Both the position numbers and the translations under genes were made by a program. A stretch of DNA of 47,421 bases from a virus: the IMG/VR virus record IMGVR_UViG_3300045960_000077, positions 1-47,421 of that record. One strand, written 5' to 3'. Below the pieces are notes generated by a model. That model was given only the letters and a program-made list of their open reading frames with translations, did no database searches and was not told the DNA's origin. The number at the start of each line of letters is the position of its first letter. Position 1 is the first letter of the stretch. Shown here one piece after another: positions 3,576 through 33,623 of the stretch.

Positions 3576-5851
3576 TATGATGTCCTTGTTAATGTAACAA
3601 TGTCGTCGGGACCATCGTTTCCATAGAATTTCTTTCCATCGCCCATCGTCCACTGATTATCTAAATACAGTTCTTCATCAATTGCCCAGTCATCTCCAGC
3701 AGTTGTTTTAGACCCAGTATAGGTAGGAGCTCCCATAAATATTGGGCCATAGGGAATATTTCCGTATATGACATCCCAATCGTCGAATGAAGCAATAACA
3801 TCTTGAACAATTTTAATCAAAACATTTCCCAGAGCAGCTAGAGGGAAGATTGTATCAAAAATCTCGTTCAAAGCAGAGTCGGGCAATGAGACAACGCCGA
3901 GATTAACACTATAAATATTTGACAAAAGCTTTGGATGAATGCTTACATTTGATGACGTTACTAGTTCAGGATCAGAAGCAAGAACTGCCAAGTGATAAGA
4001 AACTCCCGCAATGTCGGCTTTTATATAATCATATTGACTTGGAATTCCTGAAGCTATATTTCTCTCGAATGTAAGAACTCCCCCAATATTGCTAAGGAAA
4101 TTTCCATAGTTCGTAGTCAATCCATCTTGTGACACAAAAGTAAGTAATGTGCCTGGAGTGTTCACCCAGAAACCCAATGTATTATAAAGAGGATCGTGCT
4201 TTAATGTACCTGATGTTATTGGACCATCTTGTAAGCACGACACATTGTCGACGTACCCTATTGTCGTTCCTGCTTGATAGAATCTAAGATAACAATCATT
4301 TGGAGCGCTTCCTGCAATTATTGATATCGTATGTCCTGTTCCAACGTTATATAGTGTTGGACCGCCTAATTGCGTCCCGCCGGACGTCGTTCCCAATGTC
4401 ACATAAACAGACCCGGCAAGAACATCAAACGTAATATCAAAAGCTTCTCCAACAACTGTAGGAATTTTATATTCTCTAGCAGCGACTCCATACTGGAGCT
4501 TCATTGCTCCACCGTATTCTGCAGTCCATAATGAAACACCTGGAGCTGGCCATCCATATCCTTCTATACGAACATCATATACATATGTAGGAGTATAACT
4601 ACTTCCAAATTCATCAGTATATGTTCCTTCATTCATGACTTGTACTCTGACTTGTGATAAATCCTGATCAAGCGGAAGTGCTATTGTTACTGTTCCTTCT
4701 GCAAGACCGGCATCATTAATACCGCCACCAATGATTATAGGAACCGATATCGTTGTCCAGTTAACTCCGTTATTTTTTGAATATTTGTATGATGCAAACC
4801 ATGCTGATGATGGGCCTCTTACTTTTACAATAAGATTCACACTTGTGGCGCCTCCGGCGGGACCAGTAAATCCCGAAACAGTGAATATAGAAGGACTACC
4901 ACTTTGCCATGATCCTCCTAAAACTTCTGCATACGAATTAACGTTCGTATCATAAGCGTATGTTGGATTTGTAACTGAATATATTCCACTTACAGTATAC
5001 GTCGTCGGTCTAAAAGTTCTTGGAGTTGGGTCAGGCGGGCCTTCATTACCCGCATCATATATTCGCCAAAAGGCCTGATTATGCTGATCATGAGAAACCT
5101 GAGCCATAGACTCGGCTGTATCAAAAGCGCCGAGTGAAATTAATTCAACTTTACCTGCTGCAGGAGGGCCTGTTGGAATTGCTCTAAATAAATTAGTGTT
5201 ATTGCCTTGAATCCAAGCAGGTTGAGTGTCGGGGCCCACATAATCAGAATAAACTAATGTTGAACCATCGTCCGACACACACTTCGCCGTAAAACTTGGA
5301 CCAACGAATCCAAAAGTGATTATTTCGTCAGTAAAATATCGTAAATCCCAATCTGCCGTAAGTTTTGCAATAGCTTGTTCTGGAAGAACCTTGAATGTAT
5401 CAGCTGGAGTTCCAGAGTCTGTAACAGTCGCATCTCGTCCAAGCTTCAATAGCATAGTCTTTTTAAGAGCTAAGTTAGAAATTTTATCCCAGAAAACGCT
5501 GTCAACAAGACGCTGGCGATATTCAGCATCTGTTTCTGGACGTAGTTCGCCTGTAACAGCATCAGTGACATTTTCTCTTGAAATGCCGACGATACCGTTC
5601 CACATATTGAGAAAGACGTCGATTGCCTTTTGAAGATTGAGCTGCTTTAGAGCTTCTTTTATCTCGAATCTGCTTTGAGCAAGTTCTGAAGCAAGAGATT
5701 CTACAAACGATTTCCACAAAATCGAATCTTCATATTGCTTTCGAATCTCTGGAGTAAATCTTAAAAGAAGTTCTTCAAGAGTCTTCTTATGAAGCTCCTC
5801 ATAAATGGCCAGCTTGAAGTTATAGTTTGTTACCTGATTTGATAGACTCAT
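3575..5851 (-). CDS. Large multidomain tail fibre/baseplate protein with lectin-like domains
   Basis: This is a 758-residue protein. The N-terminal roughly 140 residues are helical and charged, with 'TDAEYRQRLVDSVFWDK' like the segment found in baseplate wedge or fibre-anchoring proteins. From about 280 to 560 there are Gly/Ser/Thr-rich beta domains: one contains 'NLIVKVRGPSS', another has the jelly-roll pattern of carbohydrate-binding modules (around 'AFDITFDVLAGSVYVTLG' and 'DCYLRFYQAGTTIGYVDNVS'). The C-terminal part (about 570-758) is mixed. The layout suggests a baseplate-anchored fibre with glycan-binding domains. It starts inside the end of the FN3-like gene (ATGA overlap) and is read with the fibre cluster. 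No cleavage or enzymatic residues are obvious. Confidence 0.6.
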   Translation of the reverse strand: MSLSNQVTNYNFKLAIYEELHKKTLEELLLRFTPEIRKQYEDSILWKSFVESLASELAQSRFEIKEALKQLNLQKAIDVFLNMWNGIVGISRENVTDAVTGELRPETDAEYRQRLVDSVFWDKISNLALKKTMLLKLGRDATVTDSGTPADTFKVLPEQAIAKLTADWDLRYFTDEIITFGFVGPSFTAKCVSDDGSTLVYSDYVGPDTQPAWIQGNNTNLFRAIPTGPPAAGKVELISLGAFDTAESMAQVSHDQHNQAFWRIYDAGNEGPPDPTPRTFRPTTYTVSGIYSVTNPTYAYDTNVNSYAEVLGGSWQSGSPSIFTVSGFTGPAGGATSVNLIVKVRGPSSAWFASYKYSKNNGVNWTTISVPIIIGGGINDAGLAEGTVTIALPLDQDLSQVRVQVMNEGTYTDEFGSSYTPTYVYDVRIEGYGWPAPGVSLWTAEYGGAMKLQYGVAAREYKIPTVVGEAFDITFDVLAGSVYVTLGTTSGGTQLGGPTLYNVGTGHTISIIAGSAPNDCYLRFYQAGTTIGYVDNVSCLQDGPITSGTLKHDPLYNTLGFWVNTPGTLLTFVSQDGLTTNYGNFLSNIGGVLTFERNIASGIPSQYDYIKADIAGVSYHLAVLASDPELVTSSNVSIHPKLLSNIYSVNLGVVSLPDSALNEIFDTIFPLAALGNVLIKIVQDVIASFDDWDVIYGNIPYGPIFMGAPTYTGSKTTAGDDWAIDEELYLDNQWTMGDGKKFYGNDGPDDIVTLTRTS

Positions 5852-21008: not shown

Positions 21009-21641
21009 TTATACATCGATATTTTGCCAAAAATCATTGCCGCACGATTTTAAGAAAATATTATTTATTGGGCCGTATATTTCATTCCACGTCTCTGGAT
21101 ATCTGAATCTCACGATCAAATGAACGTGAAATACATCATTCGGGAAAAACTCGGCATCTGGCGAAAATCTATCCGTATTAATATCCAAATCGGGCATGTC
21201 ATCATGATTCACTGAATATTGTTCGAGAATAAATCTCACAAATGTACCGAGAATACGTATTAAAAGTATCTGCTTACCAAGAATGTTTATTGAATAAACA
21301 CCTTGCATAATGTTTCCAAACTCGTCAGTTTCGACGCCGTCATCCATCGTTTCACTTCCCATCACATCGCCGATGGGTTTATTTGATTCAATCTGCGTTT
21401 CTTGATCCATGACGCAGACAATTACGGGAAGCATCGTTGAAATTGTGGAATATGTCGTGTGATATTGTATCTTTTCGTTTAATATGACATCTTTGAAAGC
21501 ATTTCGTTCCTCATCGCTTAAGTCCATCTTGTCAAAGAGGTATTTAAAAGTCTGATCGAACGAACTACCCAACGAGCTCAACGCAGTGAACGCCGACTGT
21601 ATGATGCGTAGTATTTTATATTCATTAAAAGGCAGAGACAT
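21009..21641 (-). CDS. Tail completion/terminator-like protein (putative)
   Basis: The 210-residue product lies between the giant disordered protein and the sheath gene, where neck or tail-terminator proteins are often coded. It contains 'MSLPFNEYKILRIIQSAFTA', a central 'LPVIVCVMDQETQIES', 'GVYSINILGKQILLIRILGT' and a late 'FFPNDVFHVHLIVRFRYPET', all suggesting an alternating alpha/beta fold. That fits gp3/gpU-type completion proteins, which cap the tail tube and sheath, but I cannot match a family. Its stop precedes the sheath promoter region. Its ATG overlaps the previous stop by one base. Confidence 0.5.
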   Translation of the reverse strand: MSLPFNEYKILRIIQSAFTALSSLGSSFDQTFKYLFDKMDLSDEERNAFKDVILNEKIQYHTTYSTISTMLPVIVCVMDQETQIESNKPIGDVMGSETMDDGVETDEFGNIMQGVYSINILGKQILLIRILGTFVRFILEQYSVNHDDMPDLDINTDRFSPDAEFFPNDVFHVHLIVRFRYPETWNEIYGPINNIFLKSCGNDFWQNIDV

Positions 21642-24600
21642 TATTCAGCTCCGTTATCGTCGTCCTCATCCTTTGATAAATCCTGAACTTCACCACCCGG
21701 ACCTACAGGCATCACTTTTGCGCCCTTAGTGATATAGGGAGAATCAGTTTGCCAAGTATTTACGACATCCTGCATAGATTTCTTGGCTAATTTGAGATTA
21801 TGCTGCCACACTTCTTCGGTTAGCCCTTCATTAAAGTCGTCTCTTTGTTTCTCATCTTTATTCTTAAAGTGAAATTTCTCGGCAACACGTTTTGATTGTT
21901 CGTGTTTCTTGGGATTATTACTTACATATCCTCTGCCCACTGCGTGGCCCGTAGTCTTGCCCGAGAAACCCTTATGAAGATCAGCAGTACGTTCGTCAAG
22001 AGATTTTGGAGCAAGTTTTTCTCTTAAAGAAGCCTCTTTTTTATAAGCCTCTTCTCTACCAGGTTCGGCTGCTGTTATACCAGGATTCTTGTCTCTAATT
22101 GCTTTGCTTTGCTTATAATCTGCCTCAGCTTTATGATCATAATCTTCGCCAGTTTGTTTTATCGACTCTTTCTTATATCCTTCACGAAGATCTTTATTTA
22201 AATCTGAATCAAGAGATTTCTGAGTTTTGTCTTCGGCGGTCCAACGACGGCCGCCATCTTTGATTGCCGAGTTTTTAGTCCCAACTTGAGATTTCTTTTC
22301 ATCGGCATCCATCTTTCGTTCTTTTTCTCTCTCGATCCCAGCATCAGGATCTTGACTTGATCCACCTCTACGATAACCTGATTTACGAGGACCATAATCG
22401 ACATTCAATGCCTTCACTAAATCAACTGTTCTCTCATCAATAGACTTTTTAGCATCTGCTGCATCGGCCTCTTCATACATCTTTTTAATCCGTATATTTG
22501 ATAGATGTTTATTGTGCGATATTCTATCGCCCTTTAGCTTTCCACCTTCGTCAATACCAAAATGAGATTCTAGTTCTTTCAAATCATCCATGTCTTCATT
22601 AGATGGTTGAAAATTATGAGAGTCTTCAGATTTTTCAGCTCTAATCTTAGCAGCCTGGCCATGTAATCCACCCATTTCAGCCTGTGTCAAGGCTTTCTTT
22701 CGAGATCCTTCAATGATTTCTTTCTTTCTGGCTTCTGAAAGTTGAGGAGTAGAGACCTTACCGTGATGCTTAGGATTTTTATGAGTTCCTTGAACATGGA
22801 TCTTACCCTTTCTAGTTCCAGGACCAAACATAGCCTTTTCCATAAGAGCATCGATAGATTTTATCAAATTATTGCTCTCTTCATCGACAGATAAACCAAA
22901 CCATGTATTTTTTGAATTCACTGGAGGGTTAGCCTCTCTTTCGGCTCTCTTCTTCAATCCTTCATTCATTTTCTTCTTCTTACTTTCTTTATACTCCGAA
23001 ATAATCCTTTTTCCCTCATCAGTATGAGGATTTTTAGGAGCAGTAGTACTACTATAATATTTTGCTTTTTCTTTCTCTCTTTTAGATTCTCTAGCTTTAA
23101 TTCCGCCAGTTCGGCTGTATGATTGATGTTTTTGCTTTGGTGTAAGATGTTCTTGAGCATCTTTTTCATAATCAGAGTGATTTTTAGGAGCAGTAGTCTC
23201 ACTATAATATTTTGTTTTTTCTTTTTTAGATTCTCTAGCTTTAATTCCACCAGCTCGGCCAGACGATTGATGTTTTTGCTCTGGCGTAAGATGTTGTTGA
23301 GAATCTTTTTCATAATCTGTAGATTCATCAGCATGATGTCGTTTATCGATAAATGTATATCCCATTCGTTTTGCTGAAACTTCTTTAAGTAAAAGATCGA
23401 TAGACTTCACAAGACTTGACTTCCAAGCACCCTCAACAGGAACCTTCACCATCTCTTTATTTTCTGTCTGAAGAGGAGTATTGCCAAATACATGGCCATT
23501 CTTTTTCTCTGGCTGTTTCTTTTCGGCTTTTCCTTCAGTCAAAACATGAGAATTGCACTTTTCAAGAAGAGCATCAATGGACGTGATTAAAGATTTCTTG
23601 GTAGCAGGCTTAGGTTTACTATAATCAGCCTCGTCATCTTCACTCCAAGTAGACTTTGGTTCCGTCTTTCTACGATGCTCTTCTACGTCTGCATAATGAG
23701 AAGCAGCGTCAGAATCATCTTTAGACTTACCCATTTCAGCTCGTTTCTTAGACTCTGCAGCTATTTCTGCTTGACGAATTGCTCTAGCTGCTTGATCCCT
23801 AAGACTTTCAGCTTCTTTGTGAGTTTCTCTTTTCACCATTGCTTCTCGGACTTTTGGATGAGTAGACCCTGATTTCTCTAGATCTGATTCTTCAGACTTT
23901 TCAGTCTTATGTTTAGATCGATAAGGCCAACTAGGCATAGGACCAGGATCAGCGGCACCTCCTGCGCCAGGACGAGATGCAGGAATTTTCGGATGTTTTT
24001 CATTCCATTCATCTTCTTCAATCTTATGATCACGAGAACTGTCTTCTTTCCAAGACTTATCCATTGACTTCCCCTGGGATTCTAATTTCTTTGCAGCATT
24101 TTCATCTGCTGTTCTAACAGCTGTTTCGCGCTTAGTGACAGGGACGTCTTCATCGTTATCGATTCGACGTTTATCTAAATTCCTAAGATAACTTTCTACC
24201 TTGGGATATGATTTAGCTTTATTGAGAAGCTCGTCTATAGCGACTCGTAGAGAAGCATTTTTGAGATCATTTTCACTCGTTATAGAAATTTCTTTACTTC
24301 CTTTTGTACCGTAACCAACATGCATTTTTTCTTCATAGGGATCATATAAAGATGTTGAATGAATTTTCTTCTTTTTTCCTTTTCCCTCGGTAACAACAGT
24401 GTGACCGCCACCAGAATGAGAATGTTGTTCTATTGCCCTTGCGTTTATTTTATAGTCTTTGCCCGCTTTTTCAATATCGAAGTCGACTTGAGATTTCTTA
24501 TTTCGACGATTATAATCAGCAATTCTAGATCGATTAACTTCATTATTATTTTCCCACTCGCTAGAATTATCAGCATGATTTGTTCTAAGTGGCGGAGCAC

Positions 24601-24676
24601 GATGAATAGCCTCGTGCACAGCTCGCTTATTAGAATCGTTGTAAACCTCGTCTGACTTGTCTTTTTTAGTTATCAT
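21641..24676 (-). CDS. Giant modular, charged, probably disordered protein with repeats
   Basis: The 1011-residue product is extremely rich in Lys, Glu, Asp, Ser and Gly and looks mostly disordered. Short amphipathic segments recur: 'SLITSIDALLEK' (362-373), 'SLVKSIDLLLKE' (421-432), 'NLIKSIDALMEKA' (603-615), 'LKNASLRVAIDELLNKAK' (138-155) and two 'KS[IL]DERT[AV]DL' segments (744-753 and 891-900). A roughly 48-residue unit beginning DYEKD (454 and 503) is tandemly duplicated. The C-terminus is acidic. No enzyme motif is visible. Related segments occur in the next upstream gene product and in the scaffold. The order (after head-tail adaptor genes) suggests an internal head or ejection protein, or a prohead-core component processed by the protease; this is inference. 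Shadow frames at 22.2 and 23.0-23.3 kb are not genes. Confidence 0.72.
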   Translation of the reverse strand: MITKKDKSDEVYNDSNKRAVHEAIHRAPPLRTNHADNSSEWENNNEVNRSRIADYNRRNKKSQVDFDIEKAGKDYKINARAIEQHSHSGGGHTVVTEGKGKKKKIHSTSLYDPYEEKMHVGYGTKGSKEISITSENDLKNASLRVAIDELLNKAKSYPKVESYLRNLDKRRIDNDEDVPVTKRETAVRTADENAAKKLESQGKSMDKSWKEDSSRDHKIEEDEWNEKHPKIPASRPGAGGAADPGPMPSWPYRSKHKTEKSEESDLEKSGSTHPKVREAMVKRETHKEAESLRDQAARAIRQAEIAAESKKRAEMGKSKDDSDAASHYADVEEHRRKTEPKSTWSEDDEADYSKPKPATKKSLITSIDALLEKCNSHVLTEGKAEKKQPEKKNGHVFGNTPLQTENKEMVKVPVEGAWKSSLVKSIDLLLKEVSAKRMGYTFIDKRHHADESTDYEKDSQQHLTPEQKHQSSGRAGGIKARESKKEKTKYYSETTAPKNHSDYEKDAQEHLTPKQKHQSYSRTGGIKARESKREKEKAKYYSSTTAPKNPHTDEGKRIISEYKESKKKKMNEGLKKRAEREANPPVNSKNTWFGLSVDEESNNLIKSIDALMEKAMFGPGTRKGKIHVQGTHKNPKHHGKVSTPQLSEARKKEIIEGSRKKALTQAEMGGLHGQAAKIRAEKSEDSHNFQPSNEDMDDLKELESHFGIDEGGKLKGDRISHNKHLSNIRIKKMYEEADAADAKKSIDERTVDLVKALNVDYGPRKSGYRRGGSSQDPDAGIEREKERKMDADEKKSQVGTKNSAIKDGGRRWTAEDKTQKSLDSDLNKDLREGYKKESIKQTGEDYDHKAEADYKQSKAIRDKNPGITAAEPGREEAYKKEASLREKLAPKSLDERTADLHKGFSGKTTGHAVGRGYVSNNPKKHEQSKRVAEKFHFKNKDEKQRDDFNEGLTEEVWQHNLKLAKKSMQDVVNTWQTDSPYITKGAKVMPVGPGGEVQDLSKDEDDDNGAE
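23033..23317 (-). repeat. Tandem ~48-residue coding repeat in the 1011-residue protein
   Basis: Residues 454-499 and 503-549 are near-copies. Each has DYEKD[SA]Q[QE]HLTP, then KHQS, then a GGIKARES element, then a KYYS..TTAPKN ending. The second copy carries about two extra residues. The copies differ at many codons, so the duplication is not recent. Confidence 0.8.
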
Positions 24677-24921
24677 GTCTCTTCATCCCTGCCTCTGCAG
24701 CCTTCCTATCATGAGGATCTTTGCTTTCGGCTAGTTTCTTAAGATTTCTCTTTGAGCCTTCACTTGTACGTTCATAGTGCTCAGCTTCAGTCGGACCAGG
24801 ATTGCTCATAGTCTGAACGTGCTTTGAATCTGGAACTACAAGTTCACCTTCTGGAAGCTCAGCTTTCTTCTTGCCACCTTGTGCCTTGTTCTTACCGGGT
24901 CGACCTTTTTCTAGCTCAGTG
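24666..24921 (-). CDS. -1 frame extension of the 561-residue protein (frameshift product)
   Basis: The roughly 230-base stretch between the stop of the 561-residue ORF (24911) and the next ATG (24676) is fully open in the -1 frame. After the A9 run (24922-24930) a -1 shift reads N-T-E-L-E-K-G-R-P-G-K-N-K-A and continues about 85 codons to TAA at 24666-24668, overlapping the next start codon by 11 bases. Composition matches the protein it would extend (Lys, Gln, Glu, Gly; an LEKGR motif). The only internal Met starts a 47-codon piece without a ribosome site, so this is more likely a frameshift tail than a gene. A homopolymer indel in the assembly is the main alternative. Confidence 0.62.
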
Positions 24922-26596
24922 TTTTTTTTTCGAGGATGGCGTCGAGTGCCTTATGAAGGTCGAAATCACCTTCAGAGGCATTCTTCAGCTTCTTCTGATT
25001 TTCCTCTGAGTTTCCTGTATCAAGCTTTCGTTCTTTCCATTCGGCAGTCTTGTCACCCTTTGGACGTGAACGAACTGTCACTTCTCCCTTTTCAGGTTCG
25101 TGACGATATCGTTTATCTTCCTTTGACTTTGGATGTTCAAATCGGCTTTCTGGCTTATCACTATAACTGATCTGCGTAGCCTTACCACCCGAGACCTTCT
25201 TGGAAACCGATGGTGAGCCCTTCTCGAGAAGGCCCATGTTTTCTAGAACTGATTTTGAGAAGTCCAACGAATAAGATTTATCTTTCATGTGCTCTTCCTT
25301 TTCCTTTTCGGGTGATTTTGCCCATTCGGCTCTTTCTTCTTTTTGACCGCCTTCGCCCTTTTCTAGGTCGAAGTCATCTTCTGATTTTTCAGCAGCCCCT
25401 GTTCCTAATCTATTCTTCAAAGCTTTGAGAGCTTCGGGATTCACTTTGCGATTAGTGAGAGGATTTTCTTTCTTTGGATTATTCTTTGAAGCAAGTGCTC
25501 CAGGTTCAGTATACTTTGAGTTAATGACTGCCTTGATAACAGTCTCAAGTCTTTCAGGACCCATAGTCTTGAGCAAATGACCAAGAGTTAGCTCATCTTC
25601 TGTCCATGACTTCTTGCTGACAAGAACATCACCATCATCATCTTCACCATCGGCACCGACTAATCCATCTTCAAACTCTTCTGGTTCATTATCAGTGAAG
25701 TTGTCAGACTTTTCAACATCATCTTCGCTGTCATCTTCTGATTTCTCAAGATCTGCATCACCTTCTGACTTCTGTTGTGATTCCTTCTTTGTGGCAGTTC
25801 CAGGATGATCTCCACCCTTATCGCCGTCGTGAACTGTGGCTGGTCGAGCTACAGCAGCATGTCCTTCGCCACCAATAGTATCCTCGGAGCCATCTTGAAA
25901 TTCTTCACCAGACTCATTCTTCTTAGACTTGTTGAGCTCATCTAAAATCTCTTGAGCTTGTGGATGGCCCTTGAGAAGTTGAGCCGTTGTAATTTCATCA
26001 ATCGTATAAGATCGTTTCATTTCTCTACCTCGAGGATTTGGATATTTCTTCTTCATTTCTTGCTGATGTTCATATTTTTCAACTTTATCGGGATCTTTAG
26101 TGTTTTCTAGAGTTTTAGGGTAAGGATGAGGATCAACCTGCTCATCTTTCTCTCGGCTCTTGAATAATTCAGGCATAGCCTTTCTATTTTCAAAAGATTT
26201 ATTTAAAAAAGAATCCATAGAAGCATTCTTTAATTCAGTTTCATGTTCGGCATTAGCAGGAATACGTTTATGTTGATATTCACCTGCACGTCTTACTCGA
26301 ATATCACCCTTTTCTTTGTCGAGCTCATAAGAATCAGCATGAACATTTGTTACTTTATCTTGATGTTTACCGCCGACATCATAATCATGTTCTTTCGTAT
26401 GCCAACGAACACTTGTAGGCTTTTTACTTCTATGTCCGTATTGCATAACTTCTTCTTTAGGAGCATCTAAATCATGATGCGTATCTTTAGCCCTTCCAAG
26501 CTTTACACGCTCAGGATTAGTAACTTTAAACTGAGTCTCTGATTTTCTTCCCTTTTCAAGCCCCATATTAGCTAATACTGATTTACTATATTCCAT
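24911..26596 (-). CDS. Modular charged protein with internal duplication (561 residues)
   Basis: The product is Lys/Glu/Asp-rich and largely disordered. The N-terminal block (about 2-134) and C-terminal block (about 444-557) are copies: both begin with 'SKSVL[AE]NMGL.EKG' and end in 'LKNAS' plus an amphipathic 'F/ID..L.K' segment. Two helices in the middle also match each other: residues 196-226 (SYTIDEITTAQLLKG) and 330-361 (SWTEDELTLGHLLKT). Residues about 231-285 closely resemble residues 75-137 of the scaffold. LEK[SG] recurs at 13-16, 283-286, 411-414 and 457-460. It may be a prohead-core or internal protein processed by the protease. Its zero-frame ends just after an A9 run. GGAG precedes the start. 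Confidence 0.7.
   Translation of the reverse strand: MEYSKSVLANMGLEKGRKSETQFKVTNPERVKLGRAKDTHHDLDAPKEEVMQYGHRSKKPTSVRWHTKEHDYDVGGKHQDKVTNVHADSYELDKEKGDIRVRRAGEYQHKRIPANAEHETELKNASMDSFLNKSFENRKAMPELFKSREKDEQVDPHPYPKTLENTKDPDKVEKYEHQQEMKKKYPNPRGREMKRSYTIDEITTAQLLKGHPQAQEILDELNKSKKNESGEEFQDGSEDTIGGEGHAAVARPATVHDGDKGGDHPGTATKKESQQKSEGDADLEKSEDDSEDDVEKSDNFTDNEPEEFEDGLVGADGEDDDGDVLVSKKSWTEDELTLGHLLKTMGPERLETVIKAVINSKYTEPGALASKNNPKKENPLTNRKVNPEALKALKNRLGTGAAEKSEDDFDLEKGEGGQKEERAEWAKSPEKEKEEHMKDKSYSLDFSKSVLENMGLLEKGSPSVSKKVSGGKATQISYSDKPESRFEHPKSKEDKRYRHEPEKGEVTVRSRPKGDKTAEWKERKLDTGNSEENQKKLKNASEGDFDLHKALDAILEKKTLS
24922..24930 (-). other. Slippery A9 run, candidate -1 frameshift site
   Basis: The minus-strand codons are CTC GAA AAA AAA ACA CTG AGC TAG: nine A in a row, including A AAA AAA, the canonical slippery heptamer. 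Slipping back one base continues into an open 85-codon frame. The zero-frame stops only four codons later. No obvious downstream stem-loop was checked by folding. Confidence 0.6.
25763..25807. repeat. Dispersed DNA repeat shared with scaffold gene (32230-32274)
   Basis: These 45 bases align without gaps to 32230-32274. The first 21 bases match at 20 positions and the last 11 match exactly, with a more divergent 13 in between. The encoded peptides share HPGTAT and ESQQKSE. The same distance is kept between the matching blocks, so this is common descent or recombination, not chance. Confidence 0.78.
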
Positions 26597-26609
26597 CTTT
26601 TATCTCCAA

Positions 26610-27389
26610 TTAGCCGAATAAATAACTATCCGGGATTTCAAGTTTTGCCGTAAAGAGCCTTGGTAGATCTTCAAAAGCCTGTTCTCCACCCTGAGAAGGA
26701 GGTTTTCCTGCTACTGTACCTCTAATTTCATGAGCAGCAGTGATTACAATATAGCTAGGGAAGAAGGTATAAAGGGCACTAAATCCCACTCCCGAAGGAG
26801 GCCTACATTTCCCTTCATTCCACACTAATAATCCGCTGTCATTCGAATCTACATCTCTGTCTTCAACATTAAGATTTCGACAATCGTACGATGTACCATT
26901 TTGATCTAAAACCTGCATTAGTTCGACAATGGGAAACGTAAATTTATACGTCTCTTTCGTAGGATCATATATCTTAGCTTCACTTCTAAATGTGACAGAC
27001 TCCTTAAAAATCATACGATCACGAATATTTACTTTGTATTCTGGTTCACATGTTAAATTAACAAAGATGTTGCTCATAATACCTGGTTGAGCCACTCTAT
27101 ACGTTAATGTCTGCTCTTCTCTTCTATTCGAAGAAGGGACGGCTCTTATTTCTTTTGTAAATACATAAGTCCATCCAGTACCGTTGCAAAGACCGCATGC
27201 TAATTGCCTGAACTTTAGATCGTTCTGTTGCGGTGCTAAAGTACAAGGGCAAACTAATGCTTGCCACCAGTCATACCTTGAGCCATATTGCTGTATTAAT
27301 CCAATTGCCGCCTGAGTATTATAATCGATTTTAATCGGATTGAAATGGACTCTAGCAGCTCCCTTTGGAGTTCCTCTATTAAGAGCCAT
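26610..27389 (-). CDS. Head completion/closure candidate with Cys pairs
   Basis: The 259-residue product follows the adaptor gene. It has an early 'YDWWQALVCPCTLAPQQ' and 'QLACGLCNGTGWTYVF' (Cys 47, 49, 65 and 68), a metal-binding-like arrangement recalling zinc ribbons in phage head-completion proteins. The rest is beta-rich ('YRVAQPGIMSNIFVNLTCE', 'ETYKFTFPIVELMQVLD'). The place after the connector and before tail genes matches head-closure proteins, which plug the portal. It starts inside the adaptor stop region (one-base overlap). The zinc and role assignments are inference; the Cys spacing is visible. Confidence 0.6.
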   Translation of the reverse strand: MALNRGTPKGAARVHFNPIKIDYNTQAAIGLIQQYGSRYDWWQALVCPCTLAPQQNDLKFRQLACGLCNGTGWTYVFTKEIRAVPSSNRREEQTLTYRVAQPGIMSNIFVNLTCEPEYKVNIRDRMIFKESVTFRSEAKIYDPTKETYKFTFPIVELMQVLDQNGTSYDCRNLNVEDRDVDSNDSGLLVWNEGKCRPPSGVGFSALYTFFPSYIVITAAHEIRGTVAGKPPSQGGEQAFEDLPRLFTAKLEIPDSYLFG

Positions 27390-28138
27390 TACGCACCTAC
27401 GAGTTGCAGACCGTAATAATATTGACGGAGAGTTTTGACAATTTCTGTCATTTCTCTTTCCATTTGTCTAATACGACCTCCATATGCAGCGTTTTCAGCC
27501 GATGCCGTCGTGCTGACCGACTGTGAGAGTCCATCAATTCCAATAGAATAGCCTGCCAAAGCAGCCTGACCGCCCAAAGCAATTTCACCAAGAACATTTA
27601 ATACTCCAGTTGTAGCATTCATGGCGATAAGCTGTGCAAGCAAATCAGGAACATCCTCATTCTCGCCGTACCCTGCTTCATATGAAACTCGTAAAATCTG
27701 CGGAACATACGTTGTTGCAGAAAGTAATGGCATGAACATTAAAATTTGATTACCGATATTCGAACTTGCTAAAATTCCATAATATGGAATCAAATTTACC
27801 TGTGCTGATTTCTTTTTAAGTTGAATCCATTCACTGGGAATCCTAATGACTGATGTAATAACGTTCAATGACATTTCAGTAACTTGGATTGCTGGTCTAG
27901 TATTGAGCTGAATATATCCGAATCCCGACATCCATTCTTCAAGCCTATAATCATAAGACTCATTCTCAATAGTCTTTGGGCGTATTGAGATATTTAAGAG
28001 CATTTCTGCTCTACTTATTGCAGAATCAATATAGAACTGAATAGCTTCATCTGTTAGTTTGTCATCGTCGAATTCAATGGGAATTCTCCAAAGCCAAACT
28101 TCTTTAAGCCAATCAGGAGTAAGATCTTTTATCTTCAT
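27389..28138 (-). CDS. Head-tail connector/adaptor protein (gp6/gp15-like)
   Basis: The 249-residue product has the helical plan of the phage connector family: 'LTDEAIQFYIDSAISRAEML' at about 28-47, then 'YIQLNTRPAIQVTEMSLNVI' (a strand typical of this fold) and a helical tail with 'VPDLLAQLIAMNATTGVLNV' and 'GGRIRQMEREMTEIVKTLRQ'. Adaptors of this type form a ring below the portal. The usual length is 100-150; this one is longer because of a C-terminal helical segment. Its ATG directly follows the TAA of the membrane protein gene, with AGAAG upstream. Confidence 0.65.
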   Translation of the reverse strand: MKIKDLTPDWLKEVWLWRIPIEFDDDKLTDEAIQFYIDSAISRAEMLLNISIRPKTIENESYDYRLEEWMSGFGYIQLNTRPAIQVTEMSLNVITSVIRIPSEWIQLKKKSAQVNLIPYYGILASSNIGNQILMFMPLLSATTYVPQILRVSYEAGYGENEDVPDLLAQLIAMNATTGVLNVLGEIALGGQAALAGYSIGIDGLSQSVSTTASAENAAYGGRIRQMEREMTEIVKTLRQYYYGLQLVGA

Positions 28139-28702
28139 TTACTTCTTCTTTGTATTAGACGTTTCATCGCCATCAGGTTCTTTGTGCCGAGGGACTACGA
28201 CTATGACTTCGTCGCCGCCTATTTTCTCGCCCTTCTTAATTGGTGGACCAACTATAACAGCGGGGACATCATGAGGTACTGGTTTTCCTTTAAGTTTTCT
28301 TGCCAAGTCTGCATTAGCAGGGTTAAAGAACTGAACGTGACAAGAATTGCATTTGTTTTCTGAAACTATCGCCGTATGATGAACCACTGCGTTTGCTGTA
28401 GCAGCAGCTCTTGAAGCGTCATTATGTTCCATGAGATCTTTTTGAACATCATTGATTTGTATTCTCATTGAAACAATTTCTTTCTGAACTTCTACTATAG
28501 TTATAGCGACCCAAGAAACCAAAGCGACTAAAAGAACAGGAAGAATTTTCCCGACAATGTCAATTAACCAACCACCTGACCACGGCTCTTTTTTCTTTTG
28601 AATATCAGCAACGTTTGATATAAGTTCACTAAGCGATTCGTCGATCGCAGTTTTAATATCTCGTTTTGTCATTATGATTCTTTCTTCATTTGGAGTAGTC
28701 AT
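28139..28702 (-). CDS. Membrane-anchored protein with a CxxCH motif
   Basis: The 187-residue product has a polar, helical N-terminus, one membrane segment at about 48-70, a short coiled coil (about 72-95), then 'NKCNSCHVQFF' (Cys 118, Cys 121, His 122), and a Pro/Lys-rich tail ending KKK. CxxCH is the covalent heme c attachment motif; here it would lie beyond the membrane helix. No second heme ligand is obvious and the region is short, so it could equally be a metal or disulfide site. I chose the ATG at 28702 because AAGGTGA lies eight bases upstream; the GTG at 28711 overlaps that ribosome site. It sits between the adaptor and a small virion gene. Function unknown. Confidence 0.55.
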   Translation of the reverse strand: MTTPNEERIIMTKRDIKTAIDESLSELISNVADIQKKKEPWSGGWLIDIVGKILPVLLVALVSWVAITIVEVQKEIVSMRIQINDVQKDLMEHNDASRAAATANAVVHHTAIVSENKCNSCHVQFFNPANADLARKLKGKPVPHDVPAVIVGPPIKKGEKIGGDEVIVVVPRHKEPDGDETSNTKKK

Positions 28703-28720
28703 ATGACTCACCTTCTATAA

Positions 28721-29107
28721 TTAGACCTTATATTCGACTACCGAAATCATGAATGGACCATTTGACGTAATTAATAGAAAAACGTCTGTGGAATTTGGTT
28801 TTATATATTGTGTGAAAGGAGTGGCAGAAAAGAACCGAGTTAAATCAATCGGTCCGGCGCCTTGAGCAAATGTGAAGAGTGTTCTTCCAGAAATAATTGT
28901 TGACCCGTTAGTAGACACACCAATAGAAAAGGTTGTACCTGCTGTAATTGCAGAATAAATAATGTATCGAAGTCCATCCGCAAGAGGGAGCACAATCGGC
29001 ACATTCGCTAAACTAGATACGAATCTAGCTTTATGTCTGAGAATAGACTCAGTATTCTGTGAAATTACTGGGAATAGAGTGGTGTGCGCTCCTGTTAAAT
29101 CAGCCAT
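28721..29107 (-). CDS. Small beta-rich virion protein, unknown
   Basis: The 128-residue product is beta-rich and lacks charged clusters: 'PVISQNTESILRHKARFV', 'ADGLRYIIYSAITAGTTFSI', 'TIISGRTLFTFAQGAG'. This suits a small capsid decoration or cement protein. An AGGAG site precedes the ATG. It lies in the small-gene cluster downstream of the capsid protein. I do not recognise a family. Confidence 0.5.
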   Translation of the reverse strand: MADLTGAHTTLFPVISQNTESILRHKARFVSSLANVPIVLPLADGLRYIIYSAITAGTTFSIGVSTNGSTIISGRTLFTFAQGAGPIDLTRFFSATPFTQYIKPNSTDVFLLITSNGPFMISVVEYKV

Positions 29108-29145
29108 TATAAACTCCTAACCTATGTTATTCATTTTATGTTATG

Positions 29146-29496
29146 TTACGCCGATGCAACTTCCTTTTTCTTTGACTTTTTAACTTCTTTAGGACTTTCG
29201 CCTTCACTAACAAATGATGGTGCCTCAGAACCTAATTCATCAGTCACTTTTTGTGTTTCAGCAGCCAACTTTGCTTCTTCGACTGCTATTGCCGCCTTAC
29301 GAGCTGCGACTGCTTTGGGTGTAACATCGAGAGTAATTCTTTGAGGCTCGAGCCCCAAACCTTTGCGCATATTCTCTAGACGCTTTTGATTAGCCTTATC
29401 GGCATCTGTCTTTATTTTTTCAATTTGATCGGGCGTAAGACGCTTTGCTTCTTCTCCCGTTAAAGTCCTATTGCCAACTCTTATATATAGAGTCAT
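29146..29496 (-). CDS. Small charged protein with MTLY start
   Basis: The 116-residue product begins MTLYIRVGNRTLTGEEAKRL, the same short MTLY...G opening as the two collagen-like proteins just upstream, then switches to a helical, Lys/Glu-rich body ('DQIEKIKTDADKANQKRLEN', 'KAAIAVEEAKLAAETQKVTD') and a basic tail with KKSKKK. It has AGGAGG before the ATG and follows a strong terminator. I infer that the MTLY segment is a common binding element and the rest a helical or DNA-contacting tail. Function unknown. Confidence 0.55.
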   Translation of the reverse strand: MTLYIRVGNRTLTGEEAKRLTPDQIEKIKTDADKANQKRLENMRKGLGLEPQRITLDVTPKAVAARKAAIAVEEAKLAAETQKVTDELGSEAPSFVSEGESPKEVKKSKKKEVASA

Positions 29497-29530
29497 ATCG
29501 ATACCCTCCTAGGGATACAAAATATTGATA

Positions 29531-29560
29531 GAGAAAATTAAGTGGGCCCGAAGGCCCACT
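29531..29560 (-). terminator. Rho-independent terminator (UUCG tetraloop)
   Basis: Minus-strand reading: an 8-base GC-rich stem AGTGGGCC / GGCCCACT with loop TTCG, followed by TAATTTTC. It begins just after the stop of the second small collagen-like gene (TAA at 29566-29568). UUCG loops are exceptionally stable. It should end most transcription before the MTLY-start gene at 29146. Confidence 0.8.
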
Positions 29561-29565
29561 CTTTA

Positions 29566-29799
29566 TTAAGCGCCAGAAACGCCAGAGTAGCCAGAAGTTC
29601 CTGTTGCTCCAGAATAACCAGAAATTCCTGAGCCTGAATAACCAGATGTGCCAGCTCCTGAATAGCCTGAAGTTCCAGTAGCACCAGAATATCCGCTGAC
29701 ACCACTATATCCAGAGATACCCGAAACGCCTCGAGGACCTGTGAACGGATTAACATACTGATAACCAACTGTGTCACCAGCTTTTGGGTAAAGAGTCAT
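29566..29799 (-). CDS. Small collagen-like protein 2
   Basis: The 77-residue product begins MTLYPKAGDTVGYQYVNPFT, then GPRG and about 50 residues of Gly-x-Ser/Gly-Tyr-Ser repeats ending SGYSGVSGA. It resembles the protein coded immediately upstream and the large fibre at the left end. A GGAGG site precedes the ATG. The place just after the capsid gene suggests a capsid-bound head fibre. Conditional expression behind the capsid terminator is likely. Confidence 0.8.
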   Translation of the reverse strand: MTLYPKAGDTVGYQYVNPFTGPRGVSGISGYSGVSGYSGATGTSGYSGAGTSGYSGSGISGYSGATGTSGYSGVSGA

Positions 29800-29826
29800 T
29801 TAAAACCTCCAAATCAATTCTTTTAA

Positions 29827-30057
29827 TTAAGGCGCGTAGCCTGAGTAACCCGAAGCGCCGAGATATCCCGAATATCCTGATACGCCATATCCAGAAGTGC
29901 CCGAGCCCGAGTAACCTGAAGTTCCGCGAGCACCAGTATATCCAGAAACTGTTCCAGACATACCAGAATATCCTTGAGGACCACGAGGGCCTCTCATATT
30001 TGCAGGAATCTCATAGGGATAACCCGTTACATCGCCTGCTTTTGGATAAAGTGTCAT
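29827..30057 (-). CDS. Small collagen-like protein 1
   Basis: The 76-residue product begins MTLYPKAGDVTGYPYEIPAN, then 'MRGPRGPQGYSG' (one real Gly-Pro-Arg/Gly-Pro-Gln stretch) and Gly-Tyr-Ser repeats. It shares its first 14 residues almost exactly with the next gene's product. An AGGAGC ribosome site precedes the ATG. It sits right after the MCP terminator, so it is translated from read-through or a local promoter. Likely a head-fibre or decoration protein. Confidence 0.8.
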   Translation of the reverse strand: MTLYPKAGDVTGYPYEIPANMRGPRGPQGYSGMSGTVSGYTGARGTSGYSGSGTSGYGVSGYSGYLGASGYSGYAP

Positions 30058-30083
30058 TGATAGAGCTCCTTTTGCGAGTCTAA

Positions 30084-30121
30084 GAAAAAAAGGGTCTTAA
30101 CAGCAGTGCCATTAAGACCCT
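30084..30121 (-). terminator. Strong rho-independent terminator after the capsid gene
   Basis: On the minus strand AGGGTCTTAA pairs with TTAAGACCCT around an 11-base loop, followed by at least six T. It lies 60 bases past the capsid stop. It would separate capsid expression from the small genes beyond it and is a textbook terminator. Confidence 0.9.
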
Positions 30122-30180
30122 TCTCATAAGTATAGTTGCTGTTATAACTATGCTGTCAGTTTTTATTTAGTAAAGTAGAA

Positions 30181-31623
30181 TTAATACTTTACGTTAATGA
30201 CTCTCGTCCACTTCAAAGGGGCAAAGAGAACGGGGACACCGTAGAGCAGGATCATCCACTTGTAAGCAGGAGCGATCGTTGCTAGATCCATCTTGACCAG
30301 CGGAGCCAACTGACGGAACGTGAGTACGTCAGGGGTCATCTGACCGATGAAGCATGTATAAGTATTAGGCATACGAACGCCTGAATAATCATATGCAGCA
30401 TCAGCTGTTGCAGCAAGAGGAATCGTCTGTACCCAATATTGCGTACCAGCAGCATCATCAACTTCGGTGATGAAGATGTCCATGAACTGAGCAGTATTAG
30501 CGTTTGAATCAACACCCGACACTGTAAAGCGAAGAGTATTAGATCCCGATGTTGTTACCGTACCACCAGCGCATGTCTTAGCAATTGTTTCTCCCCACTT
30601 ATTTCTAAGTGTGAAAGAAGCAGCATAGTCACCGGCGGCGACTGAATATCCTGAAGTAGGAGAACCAGCAGCGGTCATGGTAACAGTTACTGAACCAAGA
30701 GGCATTTCATCAGACTTGAGAAGAGTTGCTGCTGTAGGAGCTACTCTTGTCTTGTTCAAGAAGAAGGTTGGCTTTAGGTTAACTCGACCAGCCTGAGTCA
30801 TAAGACCGTCGATGTTGATGTTGACCTGAGTGTTACCAGATGCTGTTGGGAGAATTACTCTCTGTGCAGCAGTTCCAGCGAACTCTTCGTTGATCTTTGC
30901 AAGAACAGGGAATGGAAGATAAATATCAGTTGGGAAACCGAAGTTATCAACAACAGTCTGAGCTAGATCATTGACGATTGTGGTGAAAGGAGTTGAGGAG
31001 AAAGTAGTTCCACGAAGATCGTAGGTATTACCTGCACCAGTTCCGCCAGTAGAAGGACCGTCGCCAAGAAGCTTGTCAAGGCCTGCCCATTCAACATACT
31101 CTGTGGCATTTCGTCCCTTGTCATTTCCCCAGAAGAGGGAATTTTCAATCTGGCGAAGCATCCACATGATTCCGTTTGAGTTTTCCTGAGCGATAACGTC
31201 AGGAACCATCGTACGAACCAAGGTTAGAGGGTGGGAGACTGATCTGGTTGTACCAACGAACTTAACCAATGCGGCTCGTCTTGCGTAGTCGGAATTTGTC
31301 TGATAAGGTAGTTCACCTTCAGTCAAGAACCCACCGGCCTGAGTGCCGTAAGAGGTTAGCTGGTTGAATTCTTCAACCGTTGAATAAGCAGGTGACTTCG
31401 GAATATCTTTCCAGAAGTTGATGTGCTTATCTGTGAATGTGATAACCTTAAGTGAACTGTCCAGAGATTCAACTCTTAGGGACTGAGCACCCGTGGTACC
31501 ATAGTTTGAGCTACCAAAGGCTGCGCCGGCGGATAGACCATTGTCTGTTACGCCTTCGAGGGCTTTATTAAGAGCCGCGACATCCTGTAGGTCGCCGATT
31601 CCAAAACCTTGTACATCGTTCAT
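30181..31623 (-). CDS. Major capsid protein (HK97 fold) with inserted domain
   Basis: The 480-residue product is the capsid by position (after protease and scaffold) and composition. It has HK97-type landmarks: an N-terminal extension (about 1-60), an E-loop-like 'GGFLTEGELPYQTNSDYARR' (98-116), a spine helix 'QENSNGIMWMLRQIENSLFW' (146-165), and a P-domain end 'DVLTFRQLAPLVKMDLATI'. A beta insertion (about 310-405: strands such as 'YAASFTLRNKWGETIAK') looks Ig-like and is not part of the basic fold. The 29-54 segment contains a motif also seen in the protease. AGGAGGA is upstream. Terminators follow it. Confidence 0.9.
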   Translation of the reverse strand: MNDVQGFGIGDLQDVAALNKALEGVTDNGLSAGAAFGSSNYGTTGAQSLRVESLDSSLKVITFTDKHINFWKDIPKSPAYSTVEEFNQLTSYGTQAGGFLTEGELPYQTNSDYARRAALVKFVGTTRSVSHPLTLVRTMVPDVIAQENSNGIMWMLRQIENSLFWGNDKGRNATEYVEWAGLDKLLGDGPSTGGTGAGNTYDLRGTTFSSTPFTTIVNDLAQTVVDNFGFPTDIYLPFPVLAKINEEFAGTAAQRVILPTASGNTQVNINIDGLMTQAGRVNLKPTFFLNKTRVAPTAATLLKSDEMPLGSVTVTMTAAGSPTSGYSVAAGDYAASFTLRNKWGETIAKTCAGGTVTTSGSNTLRFTVSGVDSNANTAQFMDIFITEVDDAAGTQYWVQTIPLAATADAAYDYSGVRMPNTYTCFIGQMTPDVLTFRQLAPLVKMDLATIAPAYKWMILLYGVPVLFAPLKWTRVINVKY

Positions 31624-31650
31624 TGTTTAGTGTTCCTCCTAGTGAACTGA

Positions 31651-32619
31651 TTACTCTAAACCGAGTTTAGATCTTACTAATTCTGGTAGAATTGATGTGT
31701 CACCAACAGCGTCGAATCTTAGAACCATATTCGTATCTACGCCTTGATTTCCTGCCATTTGCATATCAAGAAGTCGGCTAGAGATTTCACCCTTGCTCAA
31801 CGTTGACTTGCTGAGAGAAGGATTGTCAATTCCCTTAATATTGTCGGCTGATTTGAGCAGAGACTTTCTGATATTCATTGTGTTAGCAATGTTGACGATT
31901 GCCGTTTCGAGCTCTTTGTTGGATTTTTCAAGTTCTTCAATCCTGTCAAGAGTAATTGCGAGTGATTTTGCCAATCCTGCTTCTACATATTCGGCTTCAT
32001 TGGACTTCTGAACGGTTTGTTCAACAAATTCACTATACTTCTCGTCGAGCTGGGCAACCGCCTTAGCTACAATCTCGGTGGTAAATTCGTCGATGTCAAG
32101 ATAAACTTCGCCTGGATCTTCGGACTTTTTAGCATCGTCCTTATCATCGTCGTCCTTCTTTTCATCATCATTGTCATCATCATCCTTCTTCTCGAAAGGA
32201 TTTTCGCCCTTCACAAGATCAGGATCGGATTCTGACTTCTGCTGTGATTCTGTCGAAGTAGCTGTTCCAGGATGGTTAGGTCCCGTTCCGCCGCCTTCGT
32301 GCTTAATTGTTGCCGGACGAGCTACTGGGGCTCTTCCGCCGGCGCCCTTAGGAGTCTGAATTTCATCCTGTTCGGCTCCGCCATCTTCAAAATCTTCGCC
32401 ACCTAGAGGACGACTACCGCCATCATGGCTACCACCAGCGCCCTTGGGATGCGTTCCCGAATTAGCTGCATTGGTCTCCTTTTCGGCTTCATCTTCCTTA
32501 GGAGCAGTCGCGAGTTCATGATTGACAGCCTCGGCTGGTCCACCTGAACCCGTGTGCTTTGTACCATAGCCTTGAGCTTTATTGATGAGCTCTTCGACCG
32601 CTTTAAGAATTCCTGACAT
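31651..32619 (-). CDS. Scaffolding/prohead-core-like protein, acidic and modular
   Basis: The 322-residue product lies between the protease and the capsid gene, the place of scaffolds. It starts with an amphipathic helix (MSGILKAVEELINKAQ) related to the 'SID-LL-K' helix in the two large proteins downstream. A Gly/His/Pro-rich, disordered part (about 20-135) follows, then an acid block of Asp with Lys (144-164), a coiled coil (about 172-250) with 'YLDIDEFTTEIVAKAVAQLD', and a C-terminus ending in 'SILPELVRSKLGLE', suitable for capsid docking. LEKS occurs at 230-233. Scaffolds are typically removed before packaging. GGAGG upstream. Confidence 0.75.
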   Translation of the reverse strand: MSGILKAVEELINKAQGYGTKHTGSGGPAEAVNHELATAPKEDEAEKETNAANSGTHPKGAGGSHDGGSRPLGGEDFEDGGAEQDEIQTPKGAGGRAPVARPATIKHEGGGTGPNHPGTATSTESQQKSESDPDLVKGENPFEKKDDDDNDDEKKDDDDKDDAKKSEDPGEVYLDIDEFTTEIVAKAVAQLDEKYSEFVEQTVQKSNEAEYVEAGLAKSLAITLDRIEELEKSNKELETAIVNIANTMNIRKSLLKSADNIKGIDNPSLSKSTLSKGEISSRLLDMQMAGNQGVDTNMVLRFDAVGDTSILPELVRSKLGLE

Positions 32620-32669: not shown

Positions 32670-33623
32670 TTACTGTAAGACATTAGAATCTTTAATAATT
32701 CTTACAAAATTATCGATTCCGTCAGCTCTATAAACGAGACCTACGATTTCTTCTAGCAGGACATCACTAGCCTTAGGATGTACTGTCTTGAGAAGTGTGA
32801 TTAACTCTTTGTGGGATTTTTGTGCTGTGCGAAAATTAGCATGTAGACGTGATTCTAATTCTTCTTCTGAACTTTGTCTGTTTCCTACTACTGCGTTGTT
32901 TTTAATAGCATTTGTGTTAGCGCCTTCAAGATCTTCCGTCCTAAGTGATTCATGACCCGTATAATTGCTACTACCAAATGAATGACCTGCAACTGCTCCA
33001 ACTTCTGCAATTGCTGCCAAATCTTTCTTGAGTGAAAGGTCTTTCATTATGTAGGAGACGATTTCGTCATAGGCAGGAGGAACGAAGGATTTTGAAACTG
33101 CTTCGAATGTAGCTTCAGTATTCACCGGGATATGTGTGACAGCAACGTTCGTTACTTTTGCTTTCACGATTTTTGACTTGTTGATCGCCGACCGGGCTAC
33201 GATTTTTCCTTCAATAGAATATCCTAATCTGCGAGGATGTCCTAATGATTTCAATTCAGTAGCTAGATTCCAAACATGGGTAGCCATCTCATTGTTAAAG
33301 AGCATTCCCTTTGTGAAGAAGCCGATGTGGTCGATTTTTGAGTAGACAGGAATTCCAATTACGTGGTTGGGTGAGTTGTTGTGCATCCAATTGAGCCAGC
33401 CCTGGTTGACATAATAGGATATGTCTAAACCCGATTTGATGATGCTTTCACCATCAGAATCCCAGGCTGGAGTTGAGGCATAACCTTGAATAAATCTCCC
33501 GGTTGCCTTAGTGGCATCAAAATTTTGATTTTGAAATTCCGCTTTATTCAGCTCGCCTTCGACAAACTCGATATTATCAGTATAAAACTGAAATATATCG
33601 TCGAAAGTTTTCGGATCTGTCAT
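32670..33623 (-). CDS. Prohead maturation serine protease (U35-like)
   Basis: The 317-residue product has the herpesvirus/HK97-type protease plan: 'GRFIQGYAS' (42-50), 'GWLNWMHNNSPNHVIG' with His 81, 'RLGYSIEGKIVA' with the nucleophile Ser 136, and 'AVTHIPVNTEA' with His 164, the second His. It cuts scaffold and capsid N-termini once the prohead is built. The C-terminal third (about 185-317) is helical and includes a copy of a capsid-protein motif (208-233). The ATG overlaps the stop of the preceding 62-residue ORF as TAATG. It should be active in the prohead. Confidence 0.88.
   Translation of the reverse strand: MTDPKTFDDIFQFYTDNIEFVEGELNKAEFQNQNFDATKATGRFIQGYASTPAWDSDGESIIKSGLDISYYVNQGWLNWMHNNSPNHVIGIPVYSKIDHIGFFTKGMLFNNEMATHVWNLATELKSLGHPRRLGYSIEGKIVARSAINKSKIVKAKVTNVAVTHIPVNTEATFEAVSKSFVPPAYDEIVSYIMKDLSLKKDLAAIAEVGAVAGHSFGSSNYTGHESLRTEDLEGANTNAIKNNAVVGNRQSSEEELESRLHANFRTAQKSHKELITLLKTVHPKASDVLLEEIVGLVYRADGIDNFVRIIKDSNVLQ

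Follow-up and report, generated by a model that had tools for sequence, protein, structure and literature searches.

Two large proteins of 561 and 1011 residues, encoded between the probable stopper and sheath genes of an SPO1-like phage, are on balance likely to be internal proteins of the prohead core, made of shuffled modules that are joined by cleavage segments and processed like polyproteins. The phage is represented by the uncultured virus record IMGVR_UViG_3300045960_000077 (111,421 bases), of which bases 1-47,421 form the stretch analysed here (the window); open reading frame (ORF) lists were made mechanically and some of their entries are non-genes. Features of the window are written a..b below, all of them on the minus strand. 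The 561-residue protein (24911..26596) and the 1011-residue protein (21641..24676) have 12 and 11 predicted cleavage sites, respectively, each a lysine signature in which hydrophobic-x-K is followed by S, A or G. Because this signature lies at the ends of the building blocks of which the proteins are made, they are probably packed into the young head and chopped during its maturation. The evidence is strong for the 561-residue protein and for the scaffold-like protein of the same phage (322 residues, 31651..32619), and moderate for the 1011-residue protein.

A preliminary description of this DNA had reported amphipathic segments of the type [SA]IDxLLxKA in these three proteins, and both ORFs and segments proved to be where it placed them. 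The scaffold segment, LKAVEELINKAQ, falls within residues 1-18; the 1011-residue protein has RVAIDELLNKAK (residue 144), ITSIDALLEKCN (364), VKSIDLLLKEVS (423) and IKSIDALMEKAM (605), and the 561-residue protein has HKALDAILEKKT (548). Searching the examined ORFs of the 111,421-base record with the pattern [SA][IVL][DE]x[LIM][LIM]x[KE] returned six copies, all in the scaffold-like, 561-residue and 1011-residue proteins; the four in the 1011-residue protein compare with a mean of 0.01 after shuffling. The bare segments, which are too short for significant alignment, gave no significant pairwise BLAST match to one another (best E = 0.08), and homology of the bare helix is for that reason not claimed. 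Judged from the pattern count and from conservation in relatives, the segments are real.

The segments are usually flanked by two signature sites, hydrophobic-x-K|[S/A/G] with the bar at the predicted cut, typically as LxK|SIDxLLxK|A; LIK|SIDALMEK|A, ILK|AVEELINK|A, DLHK|ALDAILEK and FSK|SVLENMGLLEK|G are examples. In the mixed set of these proteins nine site pairs are spaced 8 residues apart, against 0.6 expected. The N-terminal helix of the scaffold-like protein (residues 1-15, 32575..32619) ends in LINK|A, and LIxK|AQG is kept in seven of seven aligned scaffolds. Within the 1011-residue protein, AIDELLNK|A (residues 143-155, 24212..24250) matches the N-terminus of the homologue in relative L007, and is followed by SIDALLEK|C (residues 362-373, 23558..23593), LVK|SIDLLLKE (residues 421-432, 23381..23416) and LIK|SIDALMEK|A (residues 603-615, 22832..22870), the last being kept in L006 and L012. 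The 561-residue protein has the paired-site segment FSK|SVLENMGLLEK|G (residues 446-459, 25220..25261), kept in eight of eight aligned homologues, and the C-terminal DLHK|ALDAILEK (residues 546-558, 24923..24961), found in all homologues that extend to the C-terminus.

The signature fits both of the experimentally based capsid maturation sites at hand for the family. In the A511 capsid record X91069 the mature peptide runs from S24, after EDALK (DALK|S), and the Staphylococcus capsid chain of PDB entries 9ROW, 9ROX and 9ROZ begins after EDVVK (DVVK|S). At the equivalent place the window capsid protein has a predicted cut, ALNK|ALEG, after residue 20, and phages MA9V-3 and DAC19 have MELQK|AMQ and AELQK|AME. 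The open-licence literature that we searched yielded no published consensus of K|S type for the head proteases of SPO1-like phages. Although the signature was first noticed in the window proteins, that origin has no bearing on the tests made in other phages.

Ranked by signature counts, with expectations taken from shuffles that keep composition but not local order, the top four of the 90 ORFs of the window genome are the 561-residue protein (12 sites against 2.55 expected, equalled in 0 of 2000 shuffles), the scaffold (11 against 1.49), the protease (6 against 1.36) and the 1011-residue protein (11 against 5.0, p about 0.01). The same ranking of SPO1 puts its scaffold (11 against 1.4) and protease (8 against 1.6) first and second of 106 ORFs, and that of MA9V-3 puts a protease-scaffold fusion first of 88 (21 against 2.6). 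The scaffolds of LysYB1 (11 against 1.3) and Staphylococcus G1 (7 against 1.4) are similarly rich, and that of DAC19 is weakly enriched. As a control for circularity, a matrix trained solely on four Herelleviridae scaffold/protease pairs was applied to the window genome; it ranked the scaffold first, the 1011-residue protein second (16 against 6.0 expected, 0 of 500 shuffles equalling it) and the 561-residue protein fifth of 90. The next-best ORFs of SPO1 are those for gp2.31 (L031, 26602-27546; 7 against 2.06) and the ParB-like gp2.12 (24642-25265; 4 against 1.04), which makes these two proteins candidate internal head proteins.

The 561- and 1011-residue proteins are each about 40% charged, and such lysine-rich sequence might yield LxK[SAG]-like strings by chance. 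We consider a composition artefact of this kind very improbable: composition-preserving shuffles fall short of the counts, the cross-phage matrix recovers the same proteins, and the enrichment is specific in position, being confined to residues -2 (LIVMF) and +1 (SAG) of lysine. The other proteins of the window have no enrichment at these two positions. Site lysines are also conserved; in the 561 family 93% conservation at site lysines compares with 59% at other lysines (p = 0.0023), and the residue that follows a site lysine varies within S/G/A/T, as a protease site would be expected to allow. The earlier suggestion that these proteins are cut by the adjacent protease gains indirect support, since their segments are built from a signature that scaffold and protease carry in excess across SPO1-like phages and that matches capsid maturation sites, the cut itself being predicted.

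Both large proteins hold a repeated unit of about 80 residues, here called the KNAS unit, which ends in LKNAS and is directly followed by a site-bearing helix. The 561-residue protein has a first unit at residues 16-126 (26219..26551; E = 1.5e-7 against the 1011-family protein of L007, which is homology across the two families) and a second, with six predicted strands, at residues 460-541 (24974..25219); the 1011-residue protein has one at residues 71-142 (24251..24466). The link that the unit makes between the families is seen also in L007 against L012 (E = 9e-29). AlphaFold2 models of 11 copies gave six strands with flanking helices, with a core predicted local distance difference test (pLDDT) score of 70-80 and a mean of 60.8, so that the unit is probably beta-rich. 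Foldseek searches with the model found no known fold at E <= 0.001; p32/C1QBP-like matches were weak and were not used. The preliminary description had called the proteins disordered, which holds in part; the KNAS unit is, with modest confidence, a predicted beta domain, and both its repetition and the shuffling of modules had been missed.

The predicted KNAS fragments are basic, with isoelectric points of 9.1-9.5 (9.5 for residues 460-549 of the 561-residue protein and 9.2 for residues 71-153 of the 1011-residue protein), and the scaffold-like fragments are acidic. A block of about 90 residues is common to the scaffold-like protein (residues 74-162, 32134..32400) and the 561-residue protein (residues 230-303, 25688..25909; blastp E = 4e-14). 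The 1011-residue protein ends in a conserved C-terminal module (residues 891-1011, 21644..22006; alignments A2 and A6), the structure of which AlphaFold2 did not resolve (pLDDT 47). Pfam and PHROG scans of the 561- and 1011-residue proteins and their relatives gave nothing convincing, and tblastn with these two proteins and the scaffold found no match in 50,697 annotated phage records, nor did a scan of genome contigs.

Both genes are kept in the relatives (L005-L012 and L026-L030) wherever the contig is long enough, with homologues that differ greatly in length and module content. In L012 there is an extra ORF with two KNAS units, and a C-terminal module from it forms part of the 561 homologue in L026 instead; a moved module, ESEGEGVELPGGSMATMGNPGG, has different upstream parts in the two relatives. 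Module boundaries were compared with the sites using a symmetric window of at most 6 residues. Conserved blocks end within that distance of a site in 63% of cases, as against 21% at random (0/1000) and 11% for other lysines. ORFs that resemble GIY-YIG homing endonucleases by eye adjoin the stopper, 561 or 1011 genes in relatives (L003, 5328-6092; L005, 6106-6648; L011, 2449-2964; L012, 8354-8941; L024, 501-1064), and these may help to shuffle modules.

The preliminary description had seen the helix as a targeting tag. On this explanation the helix would serve mainly in core assembly or targeting, its many copies docking onto the scaffold or the capsid interior, with cutting incidental. A peptide of helix-K|A form is indeed common to the N-termini of the scaffold and of 1011-family relatives, which begin MDKSIIDxLLEK|A and so resemble MSGILKAVEELINK|A of the scaffold; when 762 ORF starts from four genomes were compared with this form, the scaffold was the sole match. 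The 8-residue spacing and the I/L-D/E-x-L-L pattern suit an amphipathic helix, and T4 capsid-targeting sequences join targeting and a cleavage site (PMC5694885). Against this, the number of internal copies differs between relatives, and the enrichment is centred on the two positions that flank the lysine, as for a protease site. The internal copies look like paired cleavage sites between modules. In the window's own 1011-residue protein the helix-K|A peptide lies inside the chain, at residue 143, and comparison with L007 shows a KNAS unit placed ahead of it; the 561 family begins differently. A targeting tag is plausible for the N-terminal copies and less clear for the internal ones. As an account of the whole, a role mainly in targeting is unlikely; targeting and cleavage are inseparable by sequence, and the tag idea, where it fits, is compatible with cleavage.

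Along the minus strand the genes run in the order protease, scaffold-like protein, capsid protein, small genes, probable adaptor, probable stopper, 561-residue protein, 1011-residue protein, a 210-residue protein and sheath. The prohead (head maturation) protease (317 residues, 32670..33623) matches phrog_1028 (E = 1.2e-52) and, weakly, Peptidase_S78; its homologues occur in 611 phage records, mostly of Herelleviridae type, and include the proteases of phages with known capsid cut sites (X91069, PDB 9ROW). The scaffold-like protein lies between protease and capsid genes, as does SPO1 gp3.3, and has no Pfam or PHROG family match above the cut-off. The major capsid protein (30181..31623) is like SPO1 gp6.1 (phrog_752, E = 1e-79; Gp6.1 of PDB entry 9vel, E = 1e-89) and about 40% identical to those of Bacillus and Lysinibacillus phages. 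A probable neck adaptor (27389..28138) is indicated by phrog_772, phrog_442 and gene order, and a probable stopper (26610..27389) by its sequence and phrog_1004; it contains CPC...CGLC, fitting the CPC-Xn-CxxC pattern conserved in Herelleviridae stoppers (PMC12886913). The 210-residue protein (21009..21641), which gave no convincing family match in Pfam and PHROG scans, is a possible tail terminator from gene order alone, adjoining the sheath gene.

From their gene position, the main alternative is that the two proteins are components of the neck or tail top, such as whiskers or decoration proteins, with the repeated helix as a structural or partner-binding motif. Phage 812 necks have unassigned whisker density as well as decoration proteins (PMC12886913), and a variable, modular length would suit an external appendage. 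A neck role leaves unexplained both the enrichment of the head-protease signature and the block of about 90 residues common to the scaffold, and we regard it as improbable, more so than the targeting role. Proteins of this size and layout had been called unusual between head-completion and tail genes, and this stands: SPO1, Staphylococcus G1, Listeria VAfA18, Bacteroides DAC19 and Chryseobacterium MA9V-3 have no comparable large proteins between neck and sheath genes.

Several points weigh against internal, polyprotein-like processing. The 561 and 1011 genes lie between neck genes and not beside the scaffold, and for all these phages cleavage and virion content are predictions. In the symmetric boundary test, the starts of conserved blocks show no clear coincidence with sites. 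The Listeria scaffold is not significantly enriched (3 sites against 1.45); the 1011 family shows modest enrichment, its relatives being individually weak and several of them short of significance (p = 0.20 for L006, 0.10 for L007 and 0.06 for L029). The motif is short, and its specificity is imperfect: the list of a 163-kb relative is topped by an unrelated 168-residue ORF (L042, 11123-11629), which has 10 K|[SAG] strings where 1.2 are expected; it follows an 889-residue ORF and is neither acidic nor scaffold-like.

Under the processing that we favour, the 561- and 1011-residue proteins would enter the prohead with the scaffold, partly by way of N-terminal helices like the scaffold's own, and we infer that all three co-assemble in the core, as the preliminary description proposed. 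The prohead protease would cut scaffold, capsid protein and, at module borders, the two large proteins; the acidic pieces, which resemble scaffold, would then leave the head, and the small basic KNAS domains would remain with the DNA and might be ejected. Packaging, retention and ejection are more speculative than cleavage, which is itself inferred from sequence. A fuller scheme is possible but doubtful, namely a virion polyprotein system in which chains of small folded basic domains are packaged, cut into many internal proteins and ejected with the DNA, new cargo domains being acquired over evolution when a module is inserted between a pair of K|S sites.

The T4 prohead protease cuts after glutamate, whereas the predicted cut here follows hydrophobic-x-K. 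In T4 the core proteins are reduced to short fragments, and N-terminal propeptides, the capsid-targeting sequences, are removed from internal proteins and Alt (PMC5694885). A short N-terminal peptide with a protease site at its end is common to several T4 core proteins, the internal proteins and Alt, which gp21 cuts (PMC5694885), and in this the window proteins may resemble them. Core proteins cut at many places, and packaging followed by cleavage of small internal proteins, as proposed here, are further likenesses. Here, by contrast, several modules lie in each long chain, the proteins are far larger and packaging is predicted. Pfam and PHROG scans and tblastn in 50,697 phage records found no sequence relation to T4 internal proteins or Alt, and the window proteins are most likely functionally similar to them by analogy, not homologous.

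SPO1 and other Herelleviridae share with the window the order protease-scaffold-capsid (gp3.2, gp3.3 in SPO1), homologous protease and capsid proteins, and scaffolds and proteases that bear the K|[SAG] signature; unlike it, SPO1, Staphylococcus G1 and Listeria phages lack 561- and 1011-residue counterparts between neck and sheath genes. The giant phages SPN3US and phiKZ, too, have a number of inner-head proteins that the prohead protease processes, in many cases at several sites each, as holds for several ejection proteins of SPN3US (PMC5694885); they differ in that glutamate closes their cleavage motif and that propeptides are for the most part longer than 100 residues. In MA9V-3 the first of two proteins (95271-96833 and 98188-99825) contains ISIEK|SIIDELEK|GG, the paired-site segment of the 1011 family, but the two have other modules (GREYIKTADGWK; an AAA-like ATPase region) and another gene position. 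Modules of KTFGGREYIKTADGWK type occur in MA9V-3 (L018) at 991-2628 and 3983-5545, one protein having an AAA-like ATPase region (phrog_1250) and the other the paired-site IEK|SIIDELEK|GG.

The protease also holds, in its C-terminal region, a copy of the capsid segment around and after the predicted capsid cut site: its residues 197-233 (32925..33035) copy an N-terminal segment of the capsid protein (31459-31575; blastp E = 8e-7). Staphylococcus G1 has such a copy as well (E = 1e-6), and one can be seen in LysYB1 and Listeria; it may be a pseudosubstrate or docking tail. Between capsid and neck genes the window encodes a 190-residue protein (28139-28711) that has a CNSCH motif (CxxCH, haem-binding-like) and a hydrophobic stretch that probably spans the membrane. 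At the same place L001 (5002-6033, three in tandem) and L010 (3512-3844) encode small, mutually alike proteins (MTNYPNADNSPGYVYDPD...) that were not seen in the window.

Hydrophobic-x-K|[SAG] offers a simple rule for spotting substrates of SPO1-like head proteases from sequence, and a blind ranking by it recovers the SPO1 scaffold and protease. Little is known of the internal head proteins of SPO1-like phages, several of which are under study for therapy. If the polyprotein reading is right, the head protease of these phages would turn long multidomain chains into separate proteins of the virion, for which we know of no described case among tailed phages.

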